From Ectocarpus siliculosus (lineage: Eukaryota; Sar; Phaeophyceae; Ectocarpales; Ectocarpaceae), in contig FN649730.1 in the NCBI GenBank assembly GCA_000310025.1, positions 1,937,986-2,001,985 on the forward strand: a stretch of 64,000 bases of DNA, in the 5' to 3' direction. Position numbers and translations under genes: made by a program. This document shows, piece by piece, positions 4,127 to 50,603 of this stretch (position 1 is the stretch's first letter; every line of letters starts with the position of its first letter). The notes beneath the pieces were generated by a model. It was not told the origin of the DNA. It saw only the letters and a list, made by a program, of their open reading frames with translations, and searched no databases.

Positions 4127-4128
4127 TA

Positions 4129-4151
4129 CAGTGCCGGCCCGCACTTAAGAA
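4129..4151 (+). repeat. left terminal inverted repeat of the pogo-like element
   Basis: Twenty-three bases matching the inverted right end (7297-7319) at 22 positions. It starts with CAG directly after the TA target site at 4127-4128, the usual outer end of pogo-type elements. Confidence 0.85.
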
Positions 4152-4364
4152 CCTCCTATTTTAGGCGAGGCTCAGTTCTTATTGGCTGCCCCAACCCGAG
4201 CACCAGTTCTTATTTGCCAAGTTATTATTTCGTAGTCCATTCTTCTCCAGAAAGGGCATTCTTGTTCTTATTTCAATACCGATTGCTCTATTGGCGGCTG
4301 TCAACCATGAGCAACACTACTGCTGTTGTCGGTACAAAAACACCAAGGCGTGGAGCAGCAACTG

Positions 4365-29471: not shown

Positions 29472-32400
29472 ATGACCCCGGTTCCCAGCGACGGCCGCGG
29501 TGGGGATGACTCCTACCAGCACGTGAGTGGAGGGCCGTGAACAAAAGTGTTGTCGTGCAAAAGAGCTTTCCGCACTCAGGTTATGACCGTACGTGCAGAT
29601 GTTCCCCGTTGCGGTGGTACGTACGAAATGGAAAGCCGATCGTTGTTCAACGGACCGCTCTCGCTACTACCCAGGTATCCACGCGGAGCTCGGGTACCTT
29701 TCTCCAGGCGATCGCTCGATCCATCAACAAAATACCCGAAGATCAAGTTTTCGGCCGTTGGTACAACAGCAAGGGACAAGTGGAATCTACTCGAACCTTT
29801 CATGGCGTCTGGGTGGCAAGCGGCGAGGTGATACTCCTGTCAATATATGTACATCACTGTGAATCATACCACGATCACATGCACAAGGTTTTTACTTTCG
29901 AAAGATATATCAAAATCGAATCAAATGCGACGATCATACACGAGGTTTTCACTTTTGCAATATCAACTTTATGACTCACTGAAAAATCCATGGCATTGTG
30001 TGCGAAAATGCCATTAATTGCAAATTGGGCGATGACACAAATTTGTGACCACCTACTACGTTGGGACAACCCCTCTATCCTTCGGTGTAGTCAAGTCCTC
30101 GGAGTTTAACTTTCGTGCTCTCACGCGTAGAGATACGTGGTTGTATGTGCTCTTCCTCATGCGGATGTCCGGCGGGTGCACGAGAGGTCGATTCTCCGCG
30201 ATCCCGTTTTTTCCAATGAAGCAATGCCTTGCCTGCACGAATCGAATTTTACAAGGACCAACGTGTGTCCTTCCACTCGAATGGTGACCAACGAGGATCA
30301 AAGAAAGCTGTCGACATGGGAATGAATATTCGAGGAGATGGATACGTCCCGAGGCCAGCCGTTCTAGGTTCTTGAGTACAAAACAAATCTACCTGGTGCC
30401 GATAAGAGTTGCTGTCGTGCCGGTAGGATACCTTCTTCGCTCATTTTCAGGTTGACTTTCATTCCGGTCGACCATGCGCTCTCAAAGACTTCGGTTTCGG
30501 AGATACGAGTGCAAGCGAAGTGGATACTGTGTGAGGATTGGGGCAGAATATTTCTCGTCGTTCGCTCGCCAGGTCTTTGTATCCTGCTTGAGTACAATAG
30601 GAGCCCGGAAATAAGAGACGTCAGTTTCAGGTCGACACCAGAAAGGGTCGTTTCCCGGGAAGAACCTTTTCCATCGACCCCCGCCCGTGCGTAGTTGTAG
30701 GTATCCTGGGTAGCGAGGCCCAAGCTTTAGACCGTCTCTATGGTTTCTTCTTGCCCCCCTCCCTCAGATTGCGCATCTCCTTCGAGTGGAGTGGGGCCTG
30801 AGCAAGGGCGACCGAGTCGTGCTGGCGTTCGATTTCGGCCTGCGCTTCTTCGCGGTCTTCCTTGGCTGCCTGAGAGCCGGCATCATCGCCGTGCCGGTGT
30901 ACCCGCCCAACCCGGCCACGCTCAAGAGGTCTCTCAAAAAGCTGCAGCTTATCGTCGACAGCTGTGCACCCAAGATGGTCCTCGTGTGCCCGCTCGTCAA
31001 CAAGCTCCGCCTGGCGTCGAAGCTGCGGGCGGTGGCGACGGGGAAAAGCGGCTGGCCGGACTTGCCATACCACTGCCCCGACGTCAAAGAGGAGAATATT
31101 CCCACCGGTGGCATGTCTTCTGCTACCGTTGGGTGGAGGAGTGGTGGTGGCAAGTCGGCGGACGTCAAAAGGACGCGGCCGAGCTTCGACGACCCGACCA
31201 TCAAGCCGCAAGACGTGGCCTTCCTGCAGTTCACCTCAGGGAGCACCTCCGATCCGAAGGGGGTCATGCTCACGTACGGCAACCTCACTCACAATATCGG
31301 AGTCATCGTCAACTCCTCGAACGCGGTGAGACACTAAGAAATCAAATATCTGCGCCTTGCTATGTACGATTTCATGTACTCGTGAAATCCGCAATGTCCG
31401 TTGTTCACTACCCGAAAAGAGGAATAGAATGCCTGACCCCTGCGCCATCCAGTCGATCGAGCGAATGAATGTGGTTGGGCACACCGAAAGCGAGTCTTGT
31501 CTGGTATTATCGAGGCTGTTTTGTCTTCTCACCGATGTATGCTGATGGCCTATCGCGCCTGTAGTGGTAAAGGCTTGCTATCTAGCCGGTGTTCAGCGGT
31601 GTATCGATGAGAAAACGTATTCAAGTCGACTTTTTCCGGGAAAAGCCCAGAAATCGCGTAGTAGAAGGAGTTCAGGAAGATGGGCCTTTTCGATCGCGGA
31701 CTCCTGGTCATTCTTTCCTTCTCTTGTCCTGCAACACTGAGTTTGAGCGAGCAGCACTCGCAACTTCTTCGACGTTCGCACCCGAAATCCCCACCTACTA
31801 CGCCGCGCGCCGTGCAGCAAATCGCCGAACGAGGGGGGGTCGCGGATGGCCAACGTACCTGGTTCTCCTGGCTGCCGACCTTCCACGACATGGGGCTCAT
31901 CCAGGGAACTCTGACGCCATTCGTCGCCGGATGGACGGCCGCGTACTGCTCTCCCATCACCTTCATGCGACGGCCTCTGGTTTGGCTGGAACTCATGTCC
32001 AAGGAAAAGTCGCAGATGACGGCTGCTCCAGACTTCGCGTTCCGACTCTGCGTGCGGAAGTGGTGAGAGATATTCAACTGAACATATGTTTATGAGGCAA
32101 GAACACGGCAGCAAGAGTGTGATATTTTCGCAGAAGAGCACATCACCTGCCGACAAGTGACATGGTTTCGACCAGCAAATGCATCGCGACCGGGTGGAAC
32201 CGTTGCAAGTGTATTTTCCCTCGTTTTCCCCGAACTGGAGGTGCGGGAGCGTTTTTTTTGTGCCGGAGACGTTTCGACTGTCAGACTTACGTTCGTCGAT
32301 CGTTCGTCCCCCCGCTTCACCCCTAGGGAGGAGATGTCGCCAGAGAACCGGACGGCACTACACCTGGACCTGAAGCACATCATGTTCATGCAGAACGCCG

Positions 32401-35400
32401 CCGAGCCCGTCCGCGCTAGCACTGTAAGTGTGACCGATTTGTCGGCGACAATTGGTGGTACCACCGTTGGCTCAGCTCGAAAATTCTTCCCTCGCTTCAA
32501 GTCCTGCAGTGCCCCCTATCGTTGTTGTCGTTGTCGTTGGTTGTTGTTGTTGTTGGTACCAAAATCCTCTAGGGCTTTTATCAAGTACCTCCTACTGTCT
32601 GGCCTTGCAAGGCAAAGAAATGGACCTCCTTCGTCACCCTTCGTCCGAAACAAGGCAGTTACATAATCACGACAGCAACAGCGACCCTGAATCAGAGTTC
32701 GAATACCGCACAGGAAGAAAATGAGTGAATTCCACAGCAACTGCACAATATCAAGACGAGGGGTAGGCAAGGATGAACCCGACAGTACTCCAGCATGTAT
32801 ATCCCTCCGCCTTAAATTGGCGTCTAACCGTCAACAGAATCCACACCTTAGGATGTTACACAGGAAGTCAAAAGAAGCACACGAAGCTGTACATATTTGT
32901 TTTCGGCATAGGGAGCAGCTACACGAAAACGAAAACGACAGGGCGAAAGCGAGACGAATCCCCAACAAGCACCACAACAACTCATTCTTGATCCGCTCCG
33001 TGGAAGGTTCGCGACTTCGCCGAAGCCTTCGCTGCCGTGGGCCTGCCGGGATACGCCTCCAATGCGGCGTACGGCCTCGCCGAACACACTGTCGGATGCG
33101 CGTCCTCCAGCTCTAATCCGGGAGGAGGGAGCTTGAGACACATACCTGACGAGCGGCTGCAGGCTTCCGGGGATATTCACTTCTCGGCCGGCCTCCACAT
33201 GGATGTGAGACCTAGTCAAAGCGTTTGTCTTCAACGTAATGCCGCCCTTACGAACGTTGGCGGTAGATAATGCTGTTACTTTTGTTGCCGTAGGTTCTTG
33301 ACGTCTCTATCAAGGGCATAGTAAATCCAATCTTTTGGTGTTAGGGGATTGGGGAACTGGGAGATTTTGAAGCACTTTCTCGGGGCTCAAGCAAGAAGGC
33401 GGGCAGACTTTGGCGTGAAAACGTGTTCTGATTCGAAGCGCATGCACAGGGCCGCAACATATGGTACAAGACATGCAAGCACGAGTACATGCAGTCTCTG
33501 CGGAAGTCACACAACAATGACTACCGCTGTTCATCCTTTGATGTCGTCTATAGCATCAACATGTAGCTCTTTTAACAGAAAGGGACAACCGTGGACTTGG
33601 CCCGGTTTAGGTTTCAGTTTACTCCCGTGTTACCTGCCTGCACACCAGCAGGCCCGTCCACACCAGCGTTGTAGCCATCTCCGCCCTGAATCCCCGACCG
33701 TCCCTGACAATGAAGTACAGAGTCCTGACCAGACCATGCCTCTCGTCCGCCCCGGAACGACCAACGGCACTATGTGGGGTGGGCCTGGTGCTGTTAATCT
33801 TTCGCGTCTTAACAGATCAAGATCGTCGATCCCGAGACCTGCCGGGAAGTTCCCACTGGGGAGACGGGGGAGATGTGGGTATCGTCGGACTCTGTCGCTG
33901 CGGGCTACTGGGGCAAGCCCGAGCTGACCCAGGGGACCTTCCGTGCACGGATCAAGTGTGACAGTGCCGACGGGTGAGGCTATATCAGAGAGAGCAGATT
34001 GCCACAGCCTTGGCGTTGTTCCCGTCTCACTCTGAGGCAGCCATACTTGTTGGGGTACACAGCACGAGTTCGCCCATACATGTATCAATACCTGTCTGTG
34101 GATATATAGAACAATATTGCAAAATCTGTTCTATATGGAAGGCCACGATCGCTTGCCGGTGTGCGGGGTGGTTGCGCTTGCTCATATCCCGCAGAGCTCG
34201 TTTCCCACACCACATCGAATCCCAGGTCTCCTCCCCCTCCGTGGGCCAATTCGGAGTTTCTACGCACCGGAGACCTATGCCGTGTCGACGCCGAAGGCCT
34301 TCTCTACGTCGAAGGCCGCCTAAAAGACCTCGTCATCGTTGCTGGGCGCAACATCTACCCTCAGGTGAACGTAGTCCAGGTTGTGAACATATACGTATAC
34401 GTTGATTTTGCGTTGTTCATGGATGCACTGCGTCTTGAGTGTCGCTCGATGATTTTTCCCAGTCAACGTGCTCTTTCTGCATTCAAGTTCAAGGCCGAAA
34501 CATTGATGGTGTTTCGGTAGACCCCCGGCGTTCCTACGAGCGCGAAAGGATTTTCTCGCAGTTGTTGCAAATATCTCGCCGGCCGCCCCCGATTATGGAT
34601 ACCATCCTACACCGTTGCTCTGCGTGCAGGACATTGAGTTCGTCGCCCAAGATGCGTCTCCTCTGGTCCGCCCAGGTTGCATTGCGGTCTTCTCGGAGAC
34701 AGAACTCGGCGGCGGCTTAGAGGTGAGTTTCAGGCTATTGACACGACGTGTTAGGGCACCGGAAGGGGTGTCTTGTTCCACTCCACTTCGGGTTTGGCCT
34801 AAAATTTCAACGTGACTGCACTACTAATGTAATCTGCATCACATTGCTGTGGCTGAAACATGAGGTAACTTCAGGGGGCCAAGACACTTATACCGGTTTG
34901 TTGGGGCGGAATGACCTCTGATCCGTGAGCCAACGGTTTTGATTTGCTGATTCACAGATCGTAATGGAGGTGCGAAGCGTGTCCAAGAAGAACACACATG
35001 CGGTCACGGAAGCGCTGGAAGCCGTGCGCCGCAGCGTCATGAGCGAATCGGGACTCGCACCTTCCAGGGTGGTGAGTGCATTGTTTTCGTCGCAAAACAA
35101 GTGGTTTCAACATTCATCACATGTAGTTGAGGCAATCGAAAGAGTCATTACACACGAAGTGGCACGGGAATACTTGTCGAAATGCGTAGTTGATACTGGA
35201 CTAACGTCGCAAACGGATCCCGCCGGAGTTTAGCTGAAGTTGTTTGTTCGCGTCTACGCACGAACGGTCACGCTCAATATCTTGCCAGCGAAACACGCGC
35301 CTGCCCCCTGCTGCATCGCTGTCCGTGTTCGCCACAAAACGTGGAACAGGTCGCCATCAAAGAGAGAACGATTCCGAAGACTACCTCCGGAAAGATTCAG

Positions 35401-35631
35401 CGACGCAAGACGAGAGCGGCGCTCCACGCGGGTGCCCTAGAGGTGGTGCAGGAGCTTCGTTTCGATCCCGTAGAAACGCCCCCCCCTGCTGTTCGTGGCC
35501 CCACTCCGCTGAGCGACCGTGAGGAGTCATCGTCCACAGCACCCACTGCCGTACCTGCTGCAGAAAGGGCGCTCCATCGTGCGTCCTCTTCAAAACTCTC
35601 GCCTCAAACGGCTGACGGCAACACGAGCATG
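29472..35631 (+). other. adenylation (FAAL-type) part of the synthetase
   Basis: Eleven exons, nearly all phase 0. Motifs in order: an N-terminal TFLQAIARSI helix; VYPPNPATLKRS; the ATP-binding loop FTSGSTSDPKGVMLTYGN (31231-31284); WLPTFHDMGLIQG; PITFMRRPLVWLELMSK; NAAEPVRAST; YGLAEHTVG; GEMWVSSDSVAAGYWGKPE; FLRTGDLCRVDAEGLLYVEG then RLKDLVIVAGRNIYPQ; and IPKTTSGKIQRR, which carries the C-terminal catalytic Lys. HDMGLIQG, the LRTGDL...GRLKDL...GRN-YPQ block and KTTSGK are typical of fatty-acyl-AMP ligases rather than acyl-CoA synthetases. The domain should form acyl-AMP and hand the acyl group to a carrier instead of CoA (family knowledge). The start ATG 29472 gives a short polar leader whose phase fits exon 2; a further upstream exon cannot be excluded. 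Confidence 0.9.
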
Positions 35632-38600
35632 GTGCGTTTTTTAAGAACGAGGGTCGAATTTTCCGAACAGAGGGCCCACCTATAGCTTTACTATTGTGTA
35701 TTAGCACTGGGGTATGAGCCCCGCCCCCCTGTTTATGTCGGCAGACGACTTAGAGGCGAGAGGTGTCCATGCTCGTGCTGGTAGTCCCGTGTTCCATGAT
35801 TGTTAACACACTTTTCGACGGATGTTCCGTAACGCTTGTTTTCGAGGGGTTTGTTGGCGTTAGCGTCCTCCGGAAAAAGTAATGTAGACGCCAACCGGAA
35901 ATGCTTGCAATGTTGCCCAACTGTTCACATTGCGGTGCCGTTAAGCACCAAACTCTGTTTCCGCGTATTGATGTACTCCCGAACAGGCCCCCAAGAATAG
36001 CAGCGACGCTGAAACTCCGCGCGGCAACACAGAGCGGCCTCCCGAACGGCAAGCGCCGGCCGAGTTGTGTGTCAAAGACGTAATCGACATCGTGCAGTCA
36101 GTGAGTACTGCTCTGTGTTGTTTCCTGCCGATGTTGGTGGGGGCGGTGAGATGCATTTTCCCGCAGCTAGCGCGAGCCTTCTGTCTATGATTAAGCTACT
36201 GTAGAATCGAAGTGGCGAAACAATTTTCATGGCAGCGCACAACCAGGGGACCTCGACGGGGCAAATACATATTCTTCCCTGTCGCTTGAACATGAACGCT
36301 TCCTATGATGGCAAGAAAGGCGGAGGATTTTGCAAACCATCTCGACTAGGGCTTGTTGAACTGAGACGATGCGTGTGCAACCTTGAAAAGTGTAGCATAG
36401 AGGGCGTGGTGCACATTCGCCACCATTACGAACGTTCATGACTATCCTTGATTCGACAGTCTTCGTTCGGTGGTATCCAATAGTTGCGGAAACAGTGGCG
36501 AACATGGCATCTTACCCATTGTCACAAAACACTCCCCTTTGCAAATTTCGACCATTTTCAGGCCACCGGGGTTAGTTGTATTGGAGAGTCCGACGACCTA
36601 CTGGACCTCGGCGTTGACTCTCTCATGTCCGTTGGAATCAGCAAAGTGAGATCACATGTTGTTGTCGTCGTCGTCGTCGACGTGATCGTTGACTCTCCGA
36701 TGTCTGTTGGAACCAGCAGAGTGAGTTGACTTGTTGTTGTTGCTGTCGCGTCGCTGCTTGTTGTGGTTCATGCAGTGATGTTTGGTGGTACTGTTAAGAG
36801 CTTCCGAGGGCTTCCACGAGCTGTCACACACTCGGAAGCAGGACGATCGATCGCCCAGAAATTTGTGTCTAAAACTCGGGTCATAACTGTAGCCTCGAAG
36901 CACACGACAACGGCGTGAGACCCCGACGACAGCTTGTGTTGGTCTACTACTTCCATGGTCGTTCGTCGATCATAAACATGGCGACAGTATTGGGCTGCGG
37001 TAGCTCCGCGTCTAACGCCTGTGGTACCCAAGATGTCCTGCGACGTGACTTCCCCTCTGATTGATGACGTATCCTCTGGTGAGCAGGACTTGTCTGAAGC
37101 TTCCGGATGCGAGCTCCCACAGGAGCTCGTCTTCACGCACCCCACGGTGACCCTTATCGCGGAGTTCATTAGCTCTGCCGTTCAGAGTCGTCAAGCCTCC
37201 ACTCGCGCCAGGTGTGCACATTCGTTGTCTATTGATATCATGATTCGTGACGTTTTCTGCTGAAGCGTTCGACAGTTTTGAGCCAGTTCCGTGGCGTCGC
37301 GATACGTTCTGGACGCTGACCGAGCGGGCAGTTGAAGTGGCAACCAAGATAGGGTGGCTGCAGAATGACTTCGACGCTGTGGAAAGAAGACGGCACTGTT
37401 GGTAGTTAGGACAACGAACCCAACGTTACCATTTTGGCAGGGAGGCTCGAGCTTACACCAAGGCCGTGATGGTAAACGCAAGTTTCGAAGACTAACGTTT
37501 ATCATGACCGATCTGCATTGCCGACTTCCGCCGTTGAAGCTTACGTAGCGACCTCAGTGCGGCAGGCGTCTCCTCCATGCCCACACACATGGGTGGTTTG
37601 GACTGCCCGGGAGGCTCCCACCTGAAGGACCTGGGCGAGCAGTGGACGACGGGTCCCATGCAAGGATGGGCGTTTCGCCTATCTCAGGTGAAAAGACCTG
37701 ATACAGACATCGTGACATTGGCATATCTGGTCAAGACGGCATGGTTTGTCGTTGGACTTGTACGCGTTTTAAAAAATCTTGCCCCCGCCCCCCCCTCGCC
37801 ACTTGTTCTGCTTTTGGTAACAGACGATCCTACTAGCATTGGTCCTGGTCCAGATATTCGTTGCACTGCAACCGGCCCGTCACTACTGGCGGTACATCAA
37901 CGAGTTGGCCTTGACAGGGTCATTCGGTGGGTACAACAAGCAGCCGTGGCTCTACGTGGATCTTCCTGTCTTCGGAGGAGGAGGAGGAGGAGGAGGAAGC
38001 GCAGAAGGCGAGCGAAGAAACGTTCACATGGGACCACGAAACTCTCCTAGGTCGCCTTGGTGGAAAAACTTGCCGTGGCTGCAGCGGTCGTGACGATTGA
38101 TTTTGCGCCTTACCGACGAACACCTTGCGATTCGTTTCGTTTACTTGGCACCCGACAGAGTCTTCCAAGATGCGGGTTCTCGGGCTTCTCGGAGCGCTTT
38201 CGCCCATCATATGGTTCGCGTGCTTCACGGCGATCGTCATCGTGACAAAGCTACTGCTGATCGGTGGGTACCCTCAAGTGCGCGTCCCGCTGGGCACGCG
38301 CGCGTACCTCTCCTGGTGGTATATGAACACCATGCTGAACGTGTGGGAGTCCGTCGGTGGAACGTGGTTGCTCGATACGAAGCTGATAATCTTCATTTAC
38401 CGGTGCATGGGGGCACAGGTGAGCAAATCACGCCTTCCTTTCTGACTCTCATCTTGAAAGAGTTTCTTGTTCAGTGGCGGACAATCTTGTCGTTGTCGGA
38501 AGGCATCCATTCTTGCGGTACCTTCGGCTGTGTGGCGTTATGAGGACGATCCGCGCGCTCGCGACCGCACCCCAAGCCTTACTCGCGGCACACACACATC

Positions 38601-41600
38601 CACCACGTGCAGATTGCCTGGACCGCCAGCATCAGCGTCTTCGTTCGCGAGTTCGATTCGGTGGAGGTCCAGGAAGGGGCGAAGGTGGATGGCAACCTGT
38701 ACGTCCGGCGGTTCGAGGCTTCTTACATGGACGTGGCGCCCATCATCATTGGCAAAGGTGCCGACATTAGAACCGGGTCCGTGGTGTACGGAGGGACAAG
38801 CGTCGGTGATCACTGGTGAGATGTGTGCCAGAGAAACACGGCAGCACGAACGTGATCCGACAGGCAGAGAATAGCCTGGATACCCACACGTACGACGAGC
38901 TGTATCTTTTTTTTCCTCCCTAGCATTGTTTCACCGACGTGGTGAATTCTTTGACGTGGGCTACCCTTCATGCACGTGCTCACAAGTAGAATGCAGGCAT
39001 CCTCTGCAAAATGCAATACTCCCGAGTATAGAAGTACACGACTTCCACCCAACACGAATCTTCAACTCTTCCCCCTGTCGATGGGAGGCGTTGACATGCC
39101 CACCCTATCGGGCCCGGGTGTCAATGCATGACCAGCTTGTCGGGACACACTCAACCCCGATGTCGTTGCAGCCGCGTAATACATGTGGTTTGTCGACGAC
39201 GAGACCTATTAGTGCTGGCGCTCTTTGGCATCGACCTCTCAGCAACCCGTCCGCCACAGTTGCGTAGTACTCATGTTCTGCACCCATCTCTCGTGTTTCT
39301 CTCTCGTATCGGACAAGCTCTCCTCCCGCTTCCCCCTGATTCTGACCACATCCGCCCCTCCCGTGTCTTTGATCTCTTCGCTGGGGTCCCCGATCCAGTA
39401 TTGTCGAGCCCCTTACCGTCATTCCGCCATCGTCGAAGCTTGCGGTGAGGCGACGCGGGGTCGATCTGGTCACCCGAAATTGTGTTTTGCGGGGACTAGT
39501 TTGGTTAAACTCAACACTTTCAACAATGCGGACGCTATCTCGTGGTTTTAGACGCTCTCTTGTGGTTTTGTATGTGCCCTGTATGGGTTTAGAGCAGAAT
39601 GTCACACACGCTTGAAGTATTGCCTGCGCGAGAGGTTCTGGCTCCGCCACAACGCTCGAGCGCCGAAGCATGAACAAGGACAGCCCAGTTGAGATGGTAG
39701 TGAGAAAGGCGACTTCCGTCGTCGACCAACACCCACTTGCTCTATCAGCCCACCGGCAAATTGGTTCTTTTGTGCGTAGGGCTGCCCTTAGGATGGCGTA
39801 TTGTGGCATTGACAGCTCTATCACCGACGGTCGCATCGTTCGCTTTGCCTGCACTCAGCCACACTCCACTTGGGAAGGTCACCCCGCGAAGGAAACTAGC
39901 CAAGCCCATGACAGCATGGTGCTGGATGTCCCTGGCACGCGTGTCACCACACTCTGTCTGACCGAGGTAAGCTGACAGTACATGCAGTTCCAACGTTTGC
40001 AGTTGTGGGGTCTGTTATTCGTCCAAGCTAGCTCTAGTATTGTTCATAATTCAGATGATATCCCAGCTGTGCGGGAGAAACGCACCAGGCAATCGACGGG
40101 AGGAATATTTTGGTGGCCAAACGTCACAACCCGTTCTTCACAGCAGAACAACGGCCGGTTCTTTGTCTTCCAGCTCCTTTTGCGAACTCCCGACAACAAC
40201 AGCAGCATCAGCCCCTAGGAAATGAAGCGCGGTGGCACTCGATGATCGTGGCTAACGTCGCAGGGCAACCCCTACTAGGTGACGTATGCCATACCTCACG
40301 CCACGAAAGCTAACATCGTTATGTCCCCACCCCCCGTGGGCGTATCAGTTGGCGAAGCAAATCTCGATCCTGTGCACCCTGGTTGCTACGACGGCAATGA
40401 CCTACATCCCGACCATCCTCTATGAGTCTACCGGTCTATCGGAGAACTTCCGCTACGCCCTTCTAGTCGAGGTTGTTTTTCTCGTCGCCGGAGTACCGAG
40501 CCAGCTAGCTCTCTACACCGTTCTGCTCAAGTGGGTCCTCGCAGGTACGTTGCTTTCTTTCGCCCTCTTTAGTGCCGCTATGGTATGTGTGCAGATCTAT
40601 TTTGCTAGCACTGGGTCGAAGCTTGTCTGCCGGTAGGTGGGCTTCGGCGATATCCCGTTGTTTGCAAGATTTCGCTGTTTCAGAACCAGCCTGTTGAAGA
40701 CAACAATCAAACGAACGGTCTCTTCGGCAAGGATTCATGAGCATATTTTTCGAACTTCTTGTTGTTCGTTATGTTCTGACAGGTCGCGTGACAGAGGGCT
40801 CTTACAAACCGAGCGTCTTCCAGACCTGGCGACGCTGGTACCTCGGCAGGCTTAACACGTTTGTGTTCGCCTACTTGCACGTCTTCAACCAGTGAGTCAA
40901 TCTGTCGGGCATCGCCCAAGGTAGTGAAGGCCTCCACCTTTCACTAGAGGGCTCAGTTCGTAAGACGTCCACACAAGCCAAGCCAAGCCAACCTAGAATC
41001 GAGTTCTTCAAGACAGCCATCGGCGAACCATCAATGTGCTACGACGTATTGCGCACACTCTTAGAGGTACATCAGAAAATGTTGGCGATAGTCCTCCATC
41101 GCACGTCTAACTCTGACCGTGCGATGCGATCATCACATCATGGGCCTCCATCTGCTTTGGCACCTGTTGCAACCGTTCGTCTTAGTGCGACCCCTTGCCA
41201 CTACCCTCGCATGGATGACAGGTGTCCGAGATACGAGTGGTGGAGTGCCGCGCTTGGCATGAAAGTGGGGCGTGGTTCGGTTGTCCTGCTGGAAGAATTC
41301 AACCCGGAGGACGCGCACCTGATTCAGGTGGGGCCTGACTGAAAGTAGGACGAACATCTCGCTAAACCTTGGCAACCCGAGTCCTCGGACCAGTATCAGT
41401 ACATTGAGATGCAACTCATGACCACCGGGGACATGAATGCTGTGCAGAGAAGGCAGGCATTCTTTGTGTTGGTTCGGTACGATGTCCTCTGTGAGTCGCT
41501 CACCGGACACGTGTCGGCGTTTTTGACGGGAGAGCAAGAAGTGTATGCGTGCTTGTATGCGCCAACCACACTGCAGGTTGTTACATAGCTGCCCTTCCTA

Positions 41601-44600
41601 ACCCCGTCTTCGACATTGAAAGCACACCCGTGCCTGCGGTACGTGTCCCTCCTGCAGATCGGCTGCCGATCCCACATCGGCTACCCGCGTCTCTCCGTCG
41701 ACCGACCGACCGGACGTGGAACTGAACGCGAGAAGAAGGCAATATCGATCGGATCGAAGGCGTTACTCGGGTTCGGGGTACACATCGGCGCGGGCTGTAC
41801 CGTCGGAAACGGTGCAATGGTGAGTCGATGGTGATGGTGGGCTCCGTTGATTTTAATTGCGGTTTTCATGATCGGCTTCTGGGCGCAAATTCCTTATGAT
41901 GGACGCGACTTGCTCCAAACTTCCAACACAAGAAGCCCCGCTGGGGTTTGTGTGCGAGCGTTACCACGCCTTCATGATCGATCTGCAGTCGGTCTACAGG
42001 TGCATGCCATGTCTTCGCATGTAGATGGATGCTGTCGATCATCGGTACACAGCAGTCTGTGGCTTCGTGGCATGGAATTGTTTGATTGTTGGCGTTCTCC
42101 ATACAATGCATCACAAACAATCAACCGTTTGTCTGTTGCTCATATTTTTTCTGGTGCAGCTTGGCGGATACTCCAAGCTAAGGCCTGGAGAACATCTCAC
42201 CGACGGGTCGGTGACGATGTGCGACCAGCAGAGTGCCTTTCAATTTGGTGGTTCTGCGCCTACCTCGGTCCCAAGGGATATCCATGACGGTGAGTGCAGA
42301 AGTCTCGACTCCTCTCTCCCAAGTAGACAAATTTGCCTCAACGCTAGTATTAATAGGCGAAACGTGCGAGCATACCGCTGAAAACGACACGGGCCCCTCA
42401 GCTATTCCCTCTTGCGGGTGTTCTGTTATGAGAGTCTTCCCTCCGAGAGGAAAAGAAAGATGTCCCCAGAACAACGAATTCCACACTTGACCCAAAGATG
42501 CTTCCTTACCGTGAAACCCGCTACGTATGTGCTTCACCGCTGAAGATCCCCGCGAAACTGTCAAGGCGAACGTCATCGACGCGGCGTGCACCCTGGGGGC
42601 TTGCTCCCTCAACATCCTGGCCTTGGTGGCGTCTTTCGAGGCGACCAAGCTAGCAGCATCTCTGTGGTCGAGAGGCGATTCCATCGACACCAGGGTTGTG
42701 GTGTTGTCGGCGGTGGCCTTGATCGTGTGGGCGTTGGCCTCGGCTGTACTTCTTGCCGTCTTTAAGTGGGTGTTCGTGGGGAACTTCCGCCTCATGTCAA
42801 CCGCAGGTGGGCGGCATGCATAGACCTACTGACTTTGCTTGATGAATATGGTAGATTCAGGAATGATTTCCTCAATGAGTCAAAACCGCTCTTGTGAGAG
42901 CTGATCATCGCACTGTTCGATTCTTTCTGAGAGAGGGGTTTCTCTCCCCCCTCTCCGCAGGTTGGTTTGTGCAGCGTTTCGCTTTGATGTGGTTTTCAGG
43001 CTGTATACCCATGAAACTATCTTGTGTTCGGAAGCAAGCCGGTAAACCGGACTGTGGCAGAACAAATGCTTGCTATTGGAGGAGACGGTGGTGGGCATGG
43101 GGCGGCTTTCGATGTAGAACGGCATCGCCTTCCACTTGTTTGATACTTTCACAGAGCATGAAGCTTTCCTCCATCGTACCCCGCTGTAGGACTGAACGAC
43201 ACCACGTACGAAAACAAATGCTAGGACCTGAAGAAGTCTTCCGCAGTGCGTCAATGTACAAGTACAGCTTCTGCCCTGGGCAGAAATATTTTGTTTCATG
43301 TTGAGATAACCGGCAGCATGAAACTTATTGAAAATATTATGTAGGCTACAACGATTCCTAGGTGTGGCTGGAGATCGTGTTTGAAGGTGTTCGTTTCCTT
43401 GGGTGCACACCGCAGTATACGACTTGTACATACCCCCGGCCCACTCACACCTACGAAACACTGTACGCCTCGGAGAGCGGAGATCTCTATCGTGGAGGCA
43501 CGTTTCTTCTTCGGCCTTATCGTGATTTTGGAGGATGGGCGATTTGAACTAGTGGAACCATTCAAACGAACATTCCCCAGCTACGGCCCAGGTTGGAGCG
43601 TTCGGTCATCGAAAGAAATTGTCGCATGTCTTCAGGCGGAACGTTTCTTCAAAAGCCGTTGCGTTATCGAAACTTACAAGGTAGAGCACGTCGGTGTCGA
43701 AACTCCCCTTGTTATTGTTAGCCAAAATTCACCTTGACAATGAGAACGCCGGGAATACTGTAAGCGAATAAGGCCCTCATCAATTGTAGGGGCTACCCTA
43801 CCAGCAGGCGTGTACGACGAGAACTGCGGATGCCCTCCTCGCTCGTATGTTCACCTCGGTGAAAAACGGGTTCCGGGCTCGTTGCATCAGCCACGTGTTT
43901 CTCATCGTAGGCACGTACTGCTTCGACAGGCATTCGGAGTATATCGTATTTGTTCCTTGACAACCGCTCCGTTGGCGCCCGCATTGCTCCCTGCTCCTGA
44001 GCAGGCACACAAAGGGAAATCTCTGCCCGAGTTGGGCCACGTTCAACGGACATCGAGAAGGGGTCCGGGGGAGGGCAACAAGAAGGCCAGCGGCGGAAGA
44101 CGAACAAACTCACGGCTTCGCAGGTTATGCGGTGGCGGTGGATGCAGCGCTTCGTCTACTTCTCCCTCTTCGAGCCGTACATTGTCAACACCGTCCTCAA
44201 AGGCACGTGGCTGCTCAACGTCTGGCTAAGGCTCATGGGTGCAGACGTTTCCATGGGCGCTCTGATTCTAGGCAAGGTGTCCGATCACGGCATGGTGAAG
44301 GTAAGACAATGGATGCGTCGAGCAGGGTTTAGTGACGCCGTCCTCCGATTCCTACTGATGCGCCTCGTGGTTAAACGTGATGGCTACTACAGGGAAACCT
44401 CAACCATCGCCAACTCAAGCCTATTCTATCCCCTTGTTTCCCAAAGACCGCCTGTGTTCGCCCCATGCATTCGACGCCCTCCTCCCATGACCACCACGTA
44501 ACCACCACGATGCGACGCAGGTTTGCAAGGGTTCCGTGGTTGCTGGTGTTCTATATGGACACCGCGCTACCTTCGTTGACGGAATCTGGTCCCTGGAACT

Positions 44601-44649
44601 GGCGCCTGCACGTGTAGGTATGTGGGCGCAGATTGTCTGTACCGCATGA
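29472..44649 (+). CDS. FAAL–carrier–Pls-type membrane synthetase, about 30 exons
   Basis: One gene of roughly 1500 residues. Coding exons with matching phases: 29472-29522, 29675-29827, 30768-31325, 31818-32062, 32327-32423, 33007-33204, 33816-33973, 34226-34364, 34630-34722, 34958-35071, 35350-35631, 35996-36100, 36562-36645, 37087-37211, 37540-37687, 37824-~37926, 38159-38418, 38613-38815, 39399-39444, 39859-39966, 40349-40544, 40783-40891, 40997-~41035, 41222-41327, 41658-41819, 42160-42289, 42546-42806, 44124-44300 and 44521-44649. Domain order is adenylation (fatty-acyl-AMP ligase type), phosphopantetheine carrier, then three pairs of membrane segments each followed by a left-handed beta-helix region. 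That C-terminal layout is known from bacterial poly-epsilon-lysine synthetase (Pls) and the NRPS terminal domain. Inferred role: activate a fatty or other carboxylic acid with ATP, load it on the carrier and transfer it to an amine or alcohol at a membrane. Weak points: junction 37211/37540, the ends at 37926 and 41035, the link between 42806 and 44124, and whether the last exon stops at TGA 44647-44649 or splices at GTAG|GTATGT. Confidence 0.88.
35996..37211 (+). other. phosphopantetheine carrier (PCP/ACP) part of the synthetase
   Basis: Three exons. 35996-36100 ends in CVKDVIDIVQS (helix 1). 36562-36645 carries LLDLGVDSLMSVGISK, where the Ser of DSL (codon 36619-36621) is the phosphopantetheine attachment site. 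37087-37211 carries CELPQELVFTHPTVTLIAEF, the usual helix 2-3 end (P.tlvFdhPTv..iA.fi). A Pro/Glu-rich linker precedes it. Directly after the Ser exon, a partial copy of the exon end and its donor is present in frame (see findings), so two donors 75 bp apart are available. Confidence 0.88.
37540..44649 (+). other. Pls-like C-terminal region: six membrane segments and three beta-helix domains
   Basis: Membrane segments: 1 in exon 37824 (LLALVLVQIFVAL); 2 in exon 38159 (SPIIWFACFTAIVIVTKLLL); 3-4 in exon 40349 (ILCTLVATTAMTYIPTIL and LLVEVVFLVAGVPSQLAL); 5-6 in exon 42546 (ACTLGACSLNILALVASF and VVVLSAVALIVWALASAVLL). Each pair ends in a K/W-G turn (TKLLLIGGY, LKWVLAGR, FKWVFVGN) and is followed by soluble sequence with hexapeptide-type repeats. 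Domain 1 has PIIIGKGADIRTGSVVYGG plus CIVEPLTVIPPSSKLA plus HSTWEGHPAKE. Domain 2 has WWSAALGMKVGRG, AISIGSKALLGFGVHIGAG and LGGYSKLRPG. Domain 3 has LLNVWLRLMGADVSMG and VCKGSVVAGVLYGHRATFVD. Three tandem soluble domains separated by membrane pairs is the Pls-type architecture, in which this region performs chain-length-controlled amide bond formation (known for Pls, inferred here). Confidence 0.8.
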
Positions 44650-46084
44650 AACATCACTACACTATGGGAACATGTCGGAGAGAAATCGACTCAACCCACC
44701 CCCTTCCCTTGTCCGTATGACTGAACTTCTACACACGATAATAATTCGGGGGGGGGGGAAGGTAGGGAGTTTGGTATGGCTCAACACTCCCTAACATTGG
44801 TCGCGAAAAGGGTACGGAAACTAGGGACAGCAATTTCCCCCAGAATGATTGGTCCAACCCTCCTAGTACTGGAAGCCCAAATGGGGATACCTTTGGGACA
44901 CAGCACTCAAAGGCCTAATTTCCACACTGTAGCCAACATGGGCTCCGCTGTGTGCAACGCACTAGAGAGCCCTTGGTCTAACACGCTTGGCTGAGATGGT
45001 ACGCTGTGTGATATGCTGTGTGATGCCTCTCCTGGGCCTCTAACTGGCTGTACACATCTCTCAACCCGCGTGCCCCCTGTGTGGTAAAACTGTACATGAC
45101 CTAGCAATGGAAAAATTTGCTGACGTGGCTTCAGTATGAAAAATGTTCCCACGTGTTTTGGGGACACTTTTCATACTGAAGACAAGTCACCCTCTGTCTG
45201 GCAAAGAGCTCAGATTCTGTGGAGGGACTGTAGCCCCTCGACCAATGGCTGACAAATATGTTTTCGTCAAATTTGTTTTTGCGGAGGGACTGGGTACTAC
45301 AGGAGGGTTCACCATGAACTCATTTTCTCAGGTGTATTTCTCTGCGTGTCCCAGTAACAATTGTATTGCGTCAGATCTTCACCTTGGCCCCCTCAAACTG
45401 CTTTGGTGTATACGTCGTTGGGACCAATACGGCGATATAATTGCCAGCGTTCACACGGAAAAACAGCCGAGAAGGAAAAGGGGGGGCTTACACTGTCGTT
45501 TGCTGGGCGATATGCCGCCAAGGTCCCGCCGCGCTGAAAAGTAGGACTTTTCTGGTAGTGTCTTGCGGCCGACGTGAGAATTGAACCCCTTTCCCCTTCA
45601 ACACGAAGGCAACCTTGGAATAGCGATGCACCACGTACTATCTCGCGAGCATCATTCTTTGACCGCAAACGCTCGTAACACGAATTCTATTGACCGCCAG
45701 CGGGCGCTGGCGGGTTTTGACTACCTCGGGCACATCTCCCTCACTCGCCGCCACATGCCGACACACGCGGGACTTGATCGACTTTTTCTCCAGGTGAACG
45801 TGGGGTTGTGCATGCCCACACCGGGAGCTGGTGCACGGAGATGGGGGCTGGATCAACTTTGACAGCCGGTAGCGCCACACTTAGCGGACAGGTTTTGCAA
45901 GCCGGGGAAGTGTTCGGGGGTCGTCCTCCTCAGAAGCTTTGTGGAAGTTGGGCGTGGTAACGAGTCACTTCACTTGAGAATAGTCCACCAGGCCGTAGGC
46001 AGGTGCTTGGCCCAAGCATGCACAAAAAGGATAGGTCAGGTCCCCAAAAAGATTTAGCTCTGTTGAAGAGTGTGTCTCTCGTGG
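44650..46084. other. intergenic stretch downstream of the synthetase
   Basis: No supported gene. It contains an 11-13 base G run near 44748 and a perfect-loop foldback at 45129-45181 (separate entry). A GGTTCAATTC-like tRNA T-arm resemblance near 45570 (minus) does not fold as a tRNA. Confidence 0.4.
45129..45181. repeat. short foldback (hairpin)
   Basis: CTTCAGTATGAAAA at the left is exactly complementary to TTTTCATACTGAAG at the right. The stem extends inward with a few mismatches (ATGTTCCC against GGGACACT) around a short ACGTGTTTT loop. It could be a MITE end, two abutting transposon ends or a chance hairpin. Confidence 0.5.
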
Positions 46085-46430
46085 TCGGTAGGATACGGGT
46101 GATGAGGTTATGTTTGCCCAAGGTGATATGAAATACATGAATGATCGGGGAATGCTTGCTCCAAGGTGATCTGAAGGACGTCAATGATTGGAATACGTTT
46201 GCCCAGGTGATGTGAAGAACATCGGTGATCGGAATACGTATGCTCGAAGTGATCTGAAGGATATTGGTGATTCGTGTATGTTTGCTTGATGTTGATCTGT
46301 TGGACATAGGTGATTGGTGTATGTTTGCTTCATGGTGATCTGTAGGACATTGGTGATCGAGGTACGTTTGCTTCATGGTCATTGTGATCGGTGAGTGGTT
46401 GCCCATGGTCATCTGTGGGGCATAGGTGAG
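46085..46430 (+). repeat. minisatellite, about 42-47-bp unit, 7-8 copies
   Basis: Imperfect tandem units built from TACGTTTGC or TATGTTTGC, then an interrupted GGTGATCTGAAGGAC or GGTGATCTGTAGGAC, then ATNGGTGAT. Because several unit lengths are close to a multiple of three, a minus-strand open frame (45930-46412) runs through the array. Its repetitive peptide is better explained by the satellite than by a gene. Confidence 0.7.
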
Positions 46431-49296
46431 CTAGGCCAGGCCATGAATGATCCATCCTATGTGTAGAAGCTTGTACCAATGGCAGGCAGGCGCTGGGGAG
46501 ATCCATTACTTTATTAAGGTTAACCTGTAACCTTTGGTTTGGATGGGGAGTGCGACAGTCACAAGCGTCCGGAAATTCAGCGTACAGTCCCTATACGGTG
46601 CGATCGTCGATGGAGAGTTCTCGGGTCACGGTGGTCCTAGAAACAAACCCGAACTGCCCTGCATTTTCGTCCGGGGAGATATCGATTACTTGAATCTTGC
46701 GTTCTACGTTGCCTGGGCGACGTCATGGAGACAGCAAGTCTGTACATTCGGAGTTGGGATTCGGCTGACCGGAAAGCGGGGTATCTCAGGCCGCCTGGTC
46801 TCGAAAGGGCGCACGACCCACGTCCCAGTTGGTACGCGCGGGGTCGACAGCGGCCCTAAACGCGGAAAAAGGTTTCCACTCGAGTAGCAGGCCCAACTCC
46901 GGGAATCGAGCGATTATTACCGTTGCGTCGACAATCGGAGGGATTGCTACCGTTCGAACGTATAAACGCTCGGCAACGTTGGGTATGTTACATCATTTGT
47001 AGGGCATTCATGTGCCTGAGTCATCGATGGGGTTACGGATGGTACAACCGAACACGAAATCGGGACATATATGAGTGGGAGGTCGATGGAGTCGCGGTTG
47101 GTCCGTCTTTCGATGCTGAGAGAAGGTTGTACCGAGACTTCGATGCACAAAGCGTTCGCTTGAAGTGAGACCAGGATTTGCAGCAGCGGCAGCAGAACTG
47201 CCTGCCGCCACCCACGGCGGCAACGAAACATTGTCCAGGTATTACTCCCAAGACCCCGTCACGCGCGCAAACCGAATCTTTCAAGTTCGGCTTCTCTTTT
47301 TCGGGGGGGGGATTGGGGAGATTGTCGTTTACCTCTGACCCTGATACAGCCAGCACGACAATGTTGCGAGCAAAAACACGGGGCATGGGGTGCGACTCCT
47401 ATGCGCGGTCCGATTTCTCACAATACACGATGTATGATTACCGGCAATGAACATTCCTTGGCACAATCTCAGGGAGGGAGAACATTCCAAGCTTCATCTT
47501 GTGCAAGTCCGACGGCCGGCACACAATCCGAAGAACAAGACGGCCACCACGGTGTCTTGACCTACCTGTTGTACCCACAGAGCTGCCAATCACTCTTCTA
47601 TGTAACGCGAGGACCTGCAGGGATGCCGGTAGGCCGTTTCCGACTCGTGAACCCATCTCGATGTTTTTAGATAAGTCCGTGTTTTATCATGAAGGAATGT
47701 AAAATAGGGCAACGACAGTCGTCGGGCATACAGAACATACATGCTCCACTGAGTTGGTCTGTCGCGAAGGGTGGGTCCAATACAGCCTCGTCTGCCACGC
47801 GACACTTGAGCGCTAATACTCCTGTGCTTGCGACATGACGTCCCGACACCACAGTGAGAAGCCTAAGGGTGAAATTGAAATATACGGAGGGAGTACTGAC
47901 GTGACTGGGAGTTTGTCCACTTGGCGTCTCAACGGGCGCTCTTTATGCATTTAATAACTTTTGACGGCTAGGGCGGCCCATTAGTCTAGACGATTGTCAC
48001 GTCCAACGAGAGTCCCATGGGCGGCCTTCTGTTGCTTTACAAGGGTTCGGCGATGGTTCGGCGGTGTGATGTTAACAACCGCAGTAAGTTGACGATGGCA
48101 ATCTGAGAAGTTGCTTTTCTCTGCCGTTGCAGTTGAGTTCGGTTCGGGTTGACCTCATGGGAAATGCATTTATTTGTAGTATGGGAGTATGCATACAAAG
48201 ACGCGCTCACTCTCAAGCAGTCTCATCGATACAAGTTGCAACTACTGTATACTGCGGTACATATGCATTCAGGCGCCGAGGCTACTGCAGCTGCTGTACT
48301 ACACTGTAGTTCCGTGGGATGCAACAAATAACTCATGACGTTGCTGTCGACCGATGGCCTCGGGGATGACACAAAGTGATTTTTTGATCTTCAAACGGTC
48401 CAGAGAGAGGGCTGCTGCAACACCGTCAACCCTTGTAGGATTTCCCCCCCCGAAGATTCGCCATCGATCTGTACATATCATCGTGTCTCGTCTCCGTTCG
48501 GTGTCTGTATTCCGCGGCAGTTCCGTGAACTTTCAGTACGTAAGGAGTCCAACACGTCCCCGCATGTTCTGATGGAGCGCGCCTTCGGTTGATGACATGG
48601 CTGAATCCTTCCTTGCCTGAGTGCCGTTTTGGGGCGGGAACTTATTCACAGCAGCAGCAGAAGCAGCACGTGGCGCGGAGATCGCTATCCTCAAAGAGCA
48701 TTGCTGTCTGCCGTAGCTGAGCAGCCACAGAGCCCAAGAAACCGTATCTTTTCAGTATCTTTACTTGTACAGATAGATAAGAGGATCATCGGCGCTGACG
48801 CGCTGACTGAGTAGTCTTGACGGATGGATCAGCTTTTACGCCCGCTCTCCCCAAGCAGTCGAAGCCGCAGCAAAGAACGGCAGCAGCAGCGGCAGCAGCA
48901 ACGGGTACTGCTGGTAATGGAGAGGCACTGTCAACTGTGGGGTGAGGACGCCCCCAGCACCCAACCTCTAGCGGCACGGCTGTTAGCTGCTGTGCTGTCT
49001 AGTGCTATCAATAGCTGTGCTATGCAGTGCCTTGGCAGAGGCTCATGTAGACTTGAGGCTTCGAGGTTCGAATATGTTTCTTTACTTCTTTAAAAGTACA
49101 AAAAGCAGCTGGTTCCGGAGGCGTGTTGGGCTTGCTGCTGATTTTGTGGCAGGTCCTTTGGTCCGTCGCTTGTAGCGAACATGTGTCACACACGCGCCGC
49201 ACGGCAGACTGGACAGCTGGACAGGCACACGCTGGTTCGTTGCATGCTGGCAGACGAAGACGACGATTACGGCGTGGGTGAGGGAGAGTGCATGTG
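46431..49296. other. intergenic stretch
   Basis: No supported gene. Open frames at 46534-46887 (plus) and 46923-47168 (plus) have no recognised motif. Around 48650-48900 there are CAG/AGC-rich runs. Confidence 0.35.
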
Positions 49297-49801
49297 ATGG
49301 AGTGGGGTACGGTTGGCGGAGGTAGTATTAGTAGGCGCGCGAGCTTGGTCCGACCCCGCCGTGGGGCGGAACGGCGGCTGCTGGAGGACGAGGATGTCGC
49401 CGCCATCGCCGACCACATGGACCAGGCGGACAGCGAGTTCGTCGCCAAGATGTGCATCGCCTGTGCCTTTCTATCGTGCCTGTTGGTGTGGCTTGCCTGG
49501 TCCTCGTGGTGGGATAGAAATGGGCGGAAGCGGGCAGGTGGCCGCCACGGTTTCCGGGTGCAACCCAGACCACCGTTACGGACGACGAGCTCTCTCGACT
49601 CTCTGTCAGACAGCGCCAGCTCTCCCATCCAGGGGGTGGGGGCAGCGGATGGGTGCCACAGGGGTGCGCTCGCGACTGACAGAAGCCAGCCCCGCCAGCA
49701 GCAGCAGCAGGACGAGGGCGGAAATCAGAGCCAGCGGCAAGACGAGATAAACGAGTTTTACAACCCGTTGTGGGGGCAGCGAGGAGCATCCCGTTGTTGC
49801 G
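49297..49801 (+). CDS. possible single-pass membrane protein exon, unrecognised
   Basis: ATG 49297 opens about 168 codons. An Arg-rich start (ISRRASLVRPRRGAERRLLE) leads to an acidic stretch (DEDVAAIADHMDQADSEF), one hydrophobic segment (CIACAFLSCLLVWLAWSSWW, about residues 53-72), then a Ser- and Gln-rich tail and INEFYNPLWGQRGASRCC. It ends at a good donor, TTGCG|GTAAG (phase 1), so at least one more exon should follow; none could be assigned with confidence. Composition, the membrane segment and the donor favour a real exon, but no family is recognised. Confidence 0.4.
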
Positions 49802-50123
49802 GTAAGAGCTGGCCGTAGCACGACATTCCACTACAGCAGTAGTTTTCAAATTTGCACTCTCGCAGCGCTGTGGCATGCGGGCAGGCAATCTCGTGCTCAT
49901 CAAACATCACGCACGAGCGCTCGTTTTTGTTCTCGACCAAGAGATAAGAATGGTACTATTGACTGACTTACAGTATACCATTTGTAGGATGCAGCGATAG
50001 AGGTCAAATTGTAAAAATTCTACTGCTGTAGCCCAAATTCGGCACGATATTTACGCATGCGCAGCCGATCATTGTTTTTCTCCCGACCGTGAATACGAGA
50101 GGACTCCGGTGAAGTACGCGTTT
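49802..50123. other. stretch after the membrane-protein exon
   Basis: No coding signal was recognised. It may be intron if the 49297 exon continues downstream. Confidence 0.35.
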
Positions 50124-50603
50124 GAAAGAGGCCAGGAACAAGCGAACCCGACGCCCCCCACGCCGTCACCGGCGCCAGCCCCAGCGCCTGCGCCACGTGC
50201 GTCGGCTCGTCTCGCGAATGCCTGAACGCCGCGGTTGGCGCTGCCGTGTTGTTGCACGGCGGGGTCAATGGGAGCGGCGCCCTCCCTGGACCTGAAAAGG
50301 GTCATCTGACCTGATGGCTCTACGGCGGACGCGGGCGTCCCGTAGGGCCAAGTTGGGTCTGAGAACCCTTTTCAGGTCCAGGGCGGACGCCGCTCCCAAT
50401 GACCCCGTCGTGCTATGGCACGACAGCACCTACCGCGGCGCTCAGCATTCACGAAACGAGCCGACGGCAGCAACGGTGGGGGCTGGCCCGACGCCCCCAC
50501 GCTGTGGGCGTCGCCACCGGCGGCGCTGGCGCTGCGGCTGGCGCAGACGCTGGGGCTGACGCCGGTGACGGTGTGGGGGGCCCCTTGTTCCTGGCATCTC
50601 TCA
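50124..50603. repeat. inverted duplication, arms about 180 and 240 bp
   Basis: The left arm (50124-50305), read in reverse complement, matches the right arm (50364-50603) in order. It runs from CCCTTTTCAGGTCCAGGG, GCCGCTCCCA and TGACCCCG through CGCGGCG and GAGCCGACG to CGCCGGTGACGG, GTGGGGGGC and CTTGTTCCTGGC. A 58-bp spacer separates the arms. The right arm holds an extra GC-rich insertion of about 60 bp (about 50481-50535). Both arms are very GC-rich and keep parallel open frames (TLFRSR..AAP.DP), suggesting duplication of a once-coding or conserved unit. Confidence 0.7.

Follow-up and report, generated by a model that had tools for sequence, protein, structure and literature searches.

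A locus in the brown alga Ectocarpus siliculosus raises the question of what is made when a lipid-type adenylation (A) domain stands in front of a membrane part like that of the poly-epsilon-lysine synthetase Pls. The window analysed here is a stretch of 64,000 nucleotides (C5:1937986-2001985) from a genome of 189.5 Mb in 492 contigs, which carry C numbers. It holds one plus-strand gene at 29472-45960 (window numbering), predicted by splicing from the DNA, with 29 exons, 28 introns, 1604 residues and a single terminal stop. A fatty-acyl-AMP ligase (FAAL)-type domain, one carrier domain and three units, each a transmembrane (TM) helix pair plus a beta-helix, all lie in one splice-compatible plus-strand frame. 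We propose that this fusion is a self-loading, membrane-bound acyltransferase that is independent of coenzyme A (CoA), an assignment in which our confidence is about even.

Exons were first picked by eye among six-frame open reading frames (ORFs) and tested afterwards. All 28 introns are GT-AG with agreeing phases; the sites were picked with this aim, hence the agreement is no independent test. Independent tests are provided by paralogs at C30 and C8, through colinear exons, stops and the ratio of nonsynonymous to synonymous substitutions (dN/dS). At both loci 29 of 29 exons were placed colinearly, with 0 stops in the joined frames. Automatic models of the two paralogs placed most boundaries exactly as predicted. 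The exon 16 donor was 48 bases off in both, and other shifts were at most 9 bases. Exon 21 of the C8 copy has no GT within 60 bases and has GC in its place. The preliminary description had counted about 30 introns and ended the gene at 44649. The end moves 1.3 kb beyond that point, to 45960, since the third unit is completed only by exon 29 (45794-45960), which both paralogs conserve.

The least certain junction is that of exons 16 and 17 (37967|38170), where the donor is weak and the place uncertain by several codons. It uses phase-0 sites common to all three copies and gives 0 stops. A first version (37926|38159) was dropped because its donor is absent in both paralogs; the scores of the spliced protein against TIGR02353, PRK05850 and PP-binding and the plasmid tblastn given below all used this first version. 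A candidate exon near 41000-41070 was dropped because its phases do not fit and the unit equals unit 1 in length without it, and a GT-TG intron before exon 19 was replaced by one with an AG acceptor common to the paralogs. A microexon was sought between exons 6 and 7 and none was found; the alignment there is ambiguous. The intron at this place (33205-33815) resembles L001 at about 4008-4218 in short stretches, and by eye these are seemingly duplicated in C30.

The exons are listed below with the evidence for each after the semicolon. A3 is a profile of the membrane part, and its E-values are given per exon ORF.

29472..29522, plus: exon 1, residues 1-17, ATG start; GT donor, ATG and exon kept in C30 and C8
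29675..29827, plus: exon 2, FAAL N-terminus; GT-AG, phase 0, kept in paralogs
30768..31325, plus: exon 3, FAAL with P-loop FTSGSTSDPKG (residue 223); Pfam AMP-binding 3.2e-27 (ORF 30714-31337), NCBIfam FAAL models, paralogs
31818..32062, plus: exon 4, FAAL with WLPTFHDMGLI; NCBIfam fatty-acid-AMP ligase 5.3e-24 (ORF 31665-32063), paralogs
32327..32423, plus: exon 5, FAAL; phase match, paralogs
33007..33204, plus: exon 6, FAAL with YGLAE (residue 390) and FAAL-type insertion; alignment to 47 FAALs, paralogs
33816..33973, plus: exon 7, FAAL; paralogs
34226..34364, plus: exon 8, FAAL with LRTGDLC and GRLKDL; acyl-CoA synthetase and FAAL models (ORF 34110-34520), paralogs
34630..34722, plus: exon 9, FAAL C-terminal subdomain; paralogs
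34958..35071, plus: exon 10, FAAL C-terminal subdomain; paralogs
35350..35631, plus: exon 11, FAAL end with PKTTSGK (residue 611), then variable linker; paralogs, linker dN/dS 0.54-0.87
35987..36100, plus: exon 12, linker and carrier start; PP-binding match starts here, paralogs
36562..36645, plus: exon 13, carrier with DSL serine (DSLMS, residue 753); Pfam PP-binding 7.4e-11 (joined part), paralogs
37087..37211, plus: exon 14, carrier end; PP-binding match, paralogs
37558..37687, plus: exon 15, link to membrane part; A3 1.1e-13 (ORF 37538-38047), paralogs
37824..37967, plus: exon 16, most of TM helix 1 (residues 845-863), donor uncertain; A3 9.2e-25 (ORF 37821-38090), DNA comparison with paralogs
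38170..38418, plus: exon 17, TM helix 2 (residues 908-926), unit 1 start; TIGR02353 4.6e-4 (ORF 38101-38442), A3 8.9e-47
38613..38815, plus: exon 18, unit 1 beta-helix; A3 9.3e-35, paralogs
39399..39444, plus: exon 19, unit 1 beta-helix; AG acceptor and phase as in both paralogs, A3 alone 0.1
39859..39966, plus: exon 20, unit 1 end (WEGHPAKE); A3 2e-14, paralogs
40349..40544, plus: exon 21, TM helices 3 and 4 (residues 1102-1120 and 1134-1152); A3 1.3e-31, hydropathy
40783..40891, plus: exon 22, unit 2; A3 5.3e-19, paralogs
41222..41327, plus: exon 23, unit 2; A3 2.7e-16, paralogs
41658..41819, plus: exon 24, unit 2 beta-helix (hexapeptide repeats); Pfam Hexapep (joined C-terminal part), A3 7.6e-26
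42160..42289, plus: exon 25, unit 2 end; A3 5.1e-20, paralogs
42546..42806, plus: exon 26, TM helices 5 and 6 (residues 1341-1359 and 1382-1400); A3 3.6e-45, hydropathy
44005..44300, plus: exon 27, unit 3 start; A3 1.9e-50, paralogs
44521..44617, plus: exon 28, unit 3 with LYGH...VDG; A3 1.2e-14, paralogs
45794..45960, plus: exon 29, unit 3 end and stop codon; A3 2.2e-26 (ORF 45778-45957), paralogs

Phylogeny and residues identify the predicted A domain as a FAAL and not an amino-acid A domain. A 64-row tree groups 34 bacterial FAALs with six algal rows (Shimodaira-Hasegawa-like approximate likelihood ratio test, SH-aLRT, 100) and places 19 Pls A domains and the A domain of EntF in a separate group (SH-aLRT 99). 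The rows comprise 32 of the 45 extracted bacterial FAALs plus two more, 19 of 33 Pls A domains plus EntF, four other E. coli adenylating enzymes and the six algal sequences. The tree was built by a quick method, its long outgroup branches were flagged, and the order within the FAALs is mostly weak. The window keeps 105 of the 128 columns that 90% or more of 47 FAALs conserve. Only 2 of the 38 comparable amino-acid-specific columns are present; the full set of 47 was chosen for conservation among 33 Pls A domains and for being unusual in FAALs, and nine of its columns fall past the end of the window piece, in the Pls carrier region. The best NCBIfam model is the fatty-acid-AMP ligase PRK05850 (1.1e-94, versus 1.8e-35 for AA-adenyl). 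The FAAL-like insertion after YGLAE is present, and the next strand, V-x-C-G, aligns uncleanly. The best PDB matches by name are a polyketide synthase (7r7e-g), Saframycin Mx1 synthetase B (3kxw), FadD23 and FadD32. We take 7r7e-g and 3kxw to be FAAL structures.

The carrier matches Pfam PP-binding at 42.6 bits (cut-off 20.8), and its DSL serine is Ser754. The FAAL-type domain and the single carrier with an intact serine, both named in the preliminary description, are thereby borne out. The genome also contains two phosphopantetheinyl transferase-type (ACPS) matches above the cut-off; the matched stretch of one of them contains a stop codon, perhaps as part of an intron.

The C-terminal part (C-part) is, judged by profile and alignment, homologous to the Pls/PosA membrane part but diverged. 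TIGR02353 matches the spliced part in two stretches (E = 1.4e-35) at 122.8 bits, under its curated cut-off of 423.1. The same model gave 0 matches over the whole genome, because the genome is read exon by exon there; it does match a single exon ORF and the spliced part. A full-length colinear alignment to Rhizobium Pls has 25% identity. The three units are supported by colinear profile matches and by six hydropathy peaks in three pairs (845-863 and 908-926, 1102-1120 and 1134-1152, 1341-1359 and 1382-1400). Two further overlapping peaks, at 85-113, fall in the FAAL core. Algal units 1 and 2 score best with a unit-1 profile, a single-unit profile being nearly equal, which leaves the bacterial unit of origin unsettled. 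In a model by the PosA authors, the C-domain forms three beta-helices that pack together as they do in sugar-nucleotide acyltransferases (PMC10522769). As of 2023 there was no structural information on this domain, and its chemistry was an open question (PMC10522769).

Conservation was compared with 32 bacterial Pls, some of them cut at contig or fetch ends. Among 51 columns conserved in at least 85%, the window keeps 22 of all kinds, although some columns may be misregistered at such distance. Of the 35 columns not counted as polar (polar being R, E, S, T, D, N, K and Q), which are mostly Gly, Trp, Pro and hydrophobic residues, 19 are kept. Unit 3 of the bacterial proteins carries LQTHL(Y/F)EDR or similar, with the His in 27 of 32 rows and gaps in five, just under the 85% limit and hence uncounted. 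The algal copies have LYGH...VDG, and a hand alignment with a short insertion retains the His and the Asp; MAFFT placed them otherwise. The Pls-type triple region of the preliminary description stands as three homologous units. It does not stand as a typical Pls region, given the TIGR02353 score and the loss of most Pls polar residues. Models for AMP-binding/FAAL, PP-binding and TIGR02353 all match the gene, those of the named FAAL subfamilies and TIGR02353 under their cut-offs.

In the mechanism that we propose, the FAAL would adenylate a free fatty acid with ATP and load the acyl group onto the phosphopantetheine of its own carrier, bypassing CoA. The C-terminal pseudo-trimer, formed by the three TM-pair/beta-helix units on a Pls-derived hexapeptide scaffold, would then take the acyl group off the carrier and attach it, at the membrane, to an acceptor's amine or hydroxyl. 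The sequence shows the gene structure, the domain identities, the selection on every part and the scaffold homology; activation, loading and transfer as chemistry are inferred. In favour of the proposal, the membrane part matches hexapeptide proteins of the PDB by profile, LpxA-type acyltransferases included, and a modelled single-unit relative from bacteria matches maltose and galactoside O-acetyltransferases. Passages of PMC8460268 describe FAALs as passing acyl groups to holo-acyl carrier protein (ACP) and rejecting CoA, with a blocked CoA pocket and a FAAL-specific helix. FAAL sequences are known from algae and stramenopiles, according to a passage of PMC11837247.

Several observations weigh against this proposal. 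Only 3 of the 16 polar Pls-conserved residues are kept (K587, T668 and R676, C-part numbering). R125, S356, R390, E401, S403, T404, D425, N455, T510, R521, E525, D696 and Q713 are lost, and the chemistry of transfer may therefore have changed or disappeared. No acceptor site can be recognised. The PDB profile matches of the membrane part are headed by gamma carbonic anhydrases (3.1e-7) and not by acyltransferases, those of LpxA type standing lower (1.5e-3), among the best 60 of 107. In the N-terminal domain, the FAAL falls below the curated cut-offs of the NCBIfam models that it matches (317.8 bits versus 775 for PRK05850, 269 versus 975 for FadD32), and it is not placed in these narrow subfamilies. 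It is also ambiguous at the V-x-C-G strand, whose Gly occurs in 47 of 47 FAALs compared. The misfit could come from a microexon that was overlooked, from a true deletion or from a shift in the alignment.

The loss of polar residues also bears on an alternative, in which a hydroxy- or amino-fatty acid is loaded by the FAAL and then built into a polyester or polyamide by the Pls-type part at the membrane. The order of the parts is as in Pls, whose C-part is required for polymerisation according to passages of PMC10522769, and all three units are retained. However, near-invariant residues of the 32 bacterial Pls are lost in unit 2 (E401, S403, T404, D425 and N455) and unit 3 (D696 and Q713), and we consider such a lipid polymerase unlikely. 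Polymer formation of some kind is possible and, given these losses, not favoured. The preliminary description had taken a FAAL in this place to imply a product such as an N- or O-acylated lipid or a polymeric ester or amide; a Pls-like polymer is not implied.

Paralogs in the same genome bear on the role of the membrane part. A search with a draft of the first 879 residues returned 53 matches, which form complete series at C30 and C8 and incomplete series at C198, C1 and C3. With the membrane part there were 42 matches, all at C5, C30 and C8. Across the three copy pairs, the FAAL has a dN/dS (Nei-Gojobori) of 0.230-0.259, the carrier one of 0.280-0.312 and the membrane part one of 0.222-0.299; the linker stands at 0.54-0.87. 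The ratios of the three domains are similar, and therefore the FAAL, carrier and membrane part are all held by purifying selection of similar strength.

The FAAL at C198:35117-41542 is sister to the three fusion FAALs (SH-aLRT 100) and 38-71% identical to that of the window by exon. Ketosynthase (KS) and acyltransferase (AT) exons follow downstream on the same strand at about 43771-51403 (L006:772-8404), and the locus is a probable FAAL-started type I polyketide synthase (PKS). Two more distant FAAL-like genes lie at C1:2602984-2612691 and C3:874919-877743, with no KS match in the DNA around them. No membrane part was detected in the DNA around the C198, C1 and C3 genes. The sister FAAL upstream of KS and AT exons fits a reading in which the membrane part is a scaffold or anchor and the acyl-carrier is used in trans by other enzymes, such as PKSs; the lost Pls polar residues fit it too. 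Against such a passive role, the dN/dS of the membrane part is similar to that of the FAAL and the units are kept in three paralogs, which makes it, in our view, quite unlikely. It is very improbable that two or more genes, or a decayed gene, were taken as one: the 28 introns and the uncertain exon 16/17 junction would allow it, but full colinear copies stand at three loci with 0 stops, matching phases and low dN/dS. The FAAL, carrier and membrane part occur together at all three, in keeping with the single intron-rich eukaryotic gene described at the outset. At the level of DNA, then, neither outcome that the preliminary description named as refuting it was seen: the parts stay joined, and the A domain falls with the FAALs. 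An ordinary Pls making a poly-amino acid, its A domain misread, would fit the overall architecture, and fungal Pls exist according to passages of PMC7179176, but it is largely refuted by the A-domain tree, the 2 of 38 amino-acid-specific columns and a TIGR02353 score far under the cut-off, and deserves almost no credence.

Returning to the acyltransferase proposal, a simple reading of its origin is that, in this lineage, the starter FAAL of a PKS became fused to a membrane part of Pls type, after which the fusion was copied twice. A wider reading, tentative and on balance doubtful, is that the alga evolved a membrane-bound, CoA-independent lipid polymerase or lipid-conjugating enzyme. Its own PKS FAAL-carrier starter would have replaced the amino-acid A domain of Pls, and the product would be a polymeric or conjugated acyl compound at the cell surface, made by a route not known elsewhere.

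The fusion was sought in other genomes. A FAAL-anchored scan of prokaryotic genome contigs confirmed at least 579 relatives, and 80 loci were kept. None of the 80 matches the algal or Rhizobium C-part by tblastn (E up to 1e-3), a search in which several loci were cut by contig ends and which had no positive control. A C-part profile was run on the FAAL-bearing genomes of 30 of the 80 loci and matched in 6 of these 30. By phylum, matching genomes numbered 3/339 in Cyanobacteriota, 21/398 in Pseudomonadota, 22/396 in Actinomycetota, 7/195 in Myxococcota, 10/246 in Planctomycetota and 5/301 in Chloroflexota; these counts are lower bounds (two to five candidates per genome were scored at most), with limits of 1e-10, 1e-15 or 1e-20 and phylum names taken from locus titles. 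From 71 genomes with a C-part match, 46 loci were classified and the other 25 genomes left out. Of the 46, 34 contain at least part of an A domain, which in every case scores better with the amino-acid A domain of Rhizobium than with two FAALs. A FAAL-Pls fusion thus occurs in 0 of these 34 loci. The other 12 have no A domain within the DNA examined. ORFs of 861-876 residues at L129:655-3237 (minus) and L130:2572-5199 (plus) match the Pls membrane part, with no A domain detected in the surrounding DNA.

Among plasmids, 0 of 1707 records matching the whole protein by tblastn cover 80% of it (among the matches listed, the best 40). The membrane part matched 11 plasmid records, and those annotated under the match are named Pls/PosA. 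A scan of viral contigs with a 513-residue piece of the membrane part gave no match to its patterns. A literature search for FAAL with Ectocarpus gave no match, and FAAL with brown algae gave, by title, cyanobacterial antifungals only. Searches joining Pls with FAAL, acyltransferase or related terms gave no such fusion in the titles and abstract starts of the top-ranked matches. Passages of PMC10522769 place Pls-type homologues in bacteria, archaea, fungi, Metazoa, 'Alveota' and Amoebozoa and discuss them by amino-acid binding codes. A passage of PMC13291983 reports a Pls/PosA-like domain in a polyunsaturated fatty acid-type cluster, behind a module of A domain and peptidyl carrier protein. 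One 'Other(A)' protein (A domain, carrier and another domain) is listed for Ectocarpus in a passage of PMC7073580 and could be a relative of the fusion. The preliminary description had seen in this gene a candidate for an undescribed biosynthetic route, and such a route is still only a candidate.

Elsewhere in the window, a minus-strand ORF at 4833-5651 matches a DDE superfamily endonuclease (PF03184, 2.6e-7) and is likely a transposon remnant. The genome gives 72 light-harvesting-protein matches (PF00504, E up to 1e-8), and 0 of 14 control genomes match, which marks its owner as a photosynthetic eukaryote. Clusters of these at C92, C232 and C488 have identical E-values (7.0e-35), suggesting recent tandem copies.

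A Pls-type membrane part behind a FAAL is undescribed in the passages and loci examined, and the fusion suggests that this scaffold can pair with lipid substrates. The alga keeps three selected copies of the enzyme. It offers a concrete target for expression, both for the way in which surface or storage molecules of algae might be acylated without CoA and for the chemistry of the triple beta-helix membrane part.

Smaller relatives of the membrane part occur in bacteria. Stand-alone proteins with a single TM-pair and beta-helix unit (L095:4346-5251, L096:75-899 and L131-L138) form a bacterial family related to the Pls membrane part. Eight aligned members share one invariant His and two invariant Asp. 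In Foldseek, a model of one (mean predicted local distance difference test, pLDDT, 79.2; predicted TM-score, pTM, 0.68) finds maltose and galactoside O-acetyltransferases, with a best E of 6.9e-9 and query TM-scores of 0.30-0.40 over the top six rows. These proteins, from Myxococcota, Gemmatimonadota, Calditrichota and Planctomycetota, resemble the algal part in having one unit of the same membrane fold. They differ in being ORFs of 257-396 residues with no A domain or carrier detected.

Like the alga, the Pls/PosA family (TIGR02353; bacterial Pls, fungal Epls and PosA) has an A domain, one carrier and three TM pairs, each followed by a beta-helix unit. Unlike it, the algal gene has a FAAL in place of the amino-acid A domain, and its C-part has diverged in both TIGR02353 score and polar residues. 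FAAL-ACP didomain proteins and the FAAL loading modules of PKSs and nonribosomal peptide synthetases, as described in passages of PMC11837247, likewise fuse a FAAL to its own carrier, and in this genome PKS exons lie downstream of a FAAL from the same algal clade. In the fusion, however, the carrier is followed by a membrane beta-helix part and not by KS or C domains. Hexapeptide acyltransferases such as LpxA/LpxD and maltose O-acetyltransferase share the beta-helix repeats and, presumably, acyl transfer, whereas the algal protein has three units per chain, TM helices and a covalently attached FAAL and carrier. By these comparisons the fusion is a new architecture of known parts and not a member of the polycationic polyamino-acid synthetases.

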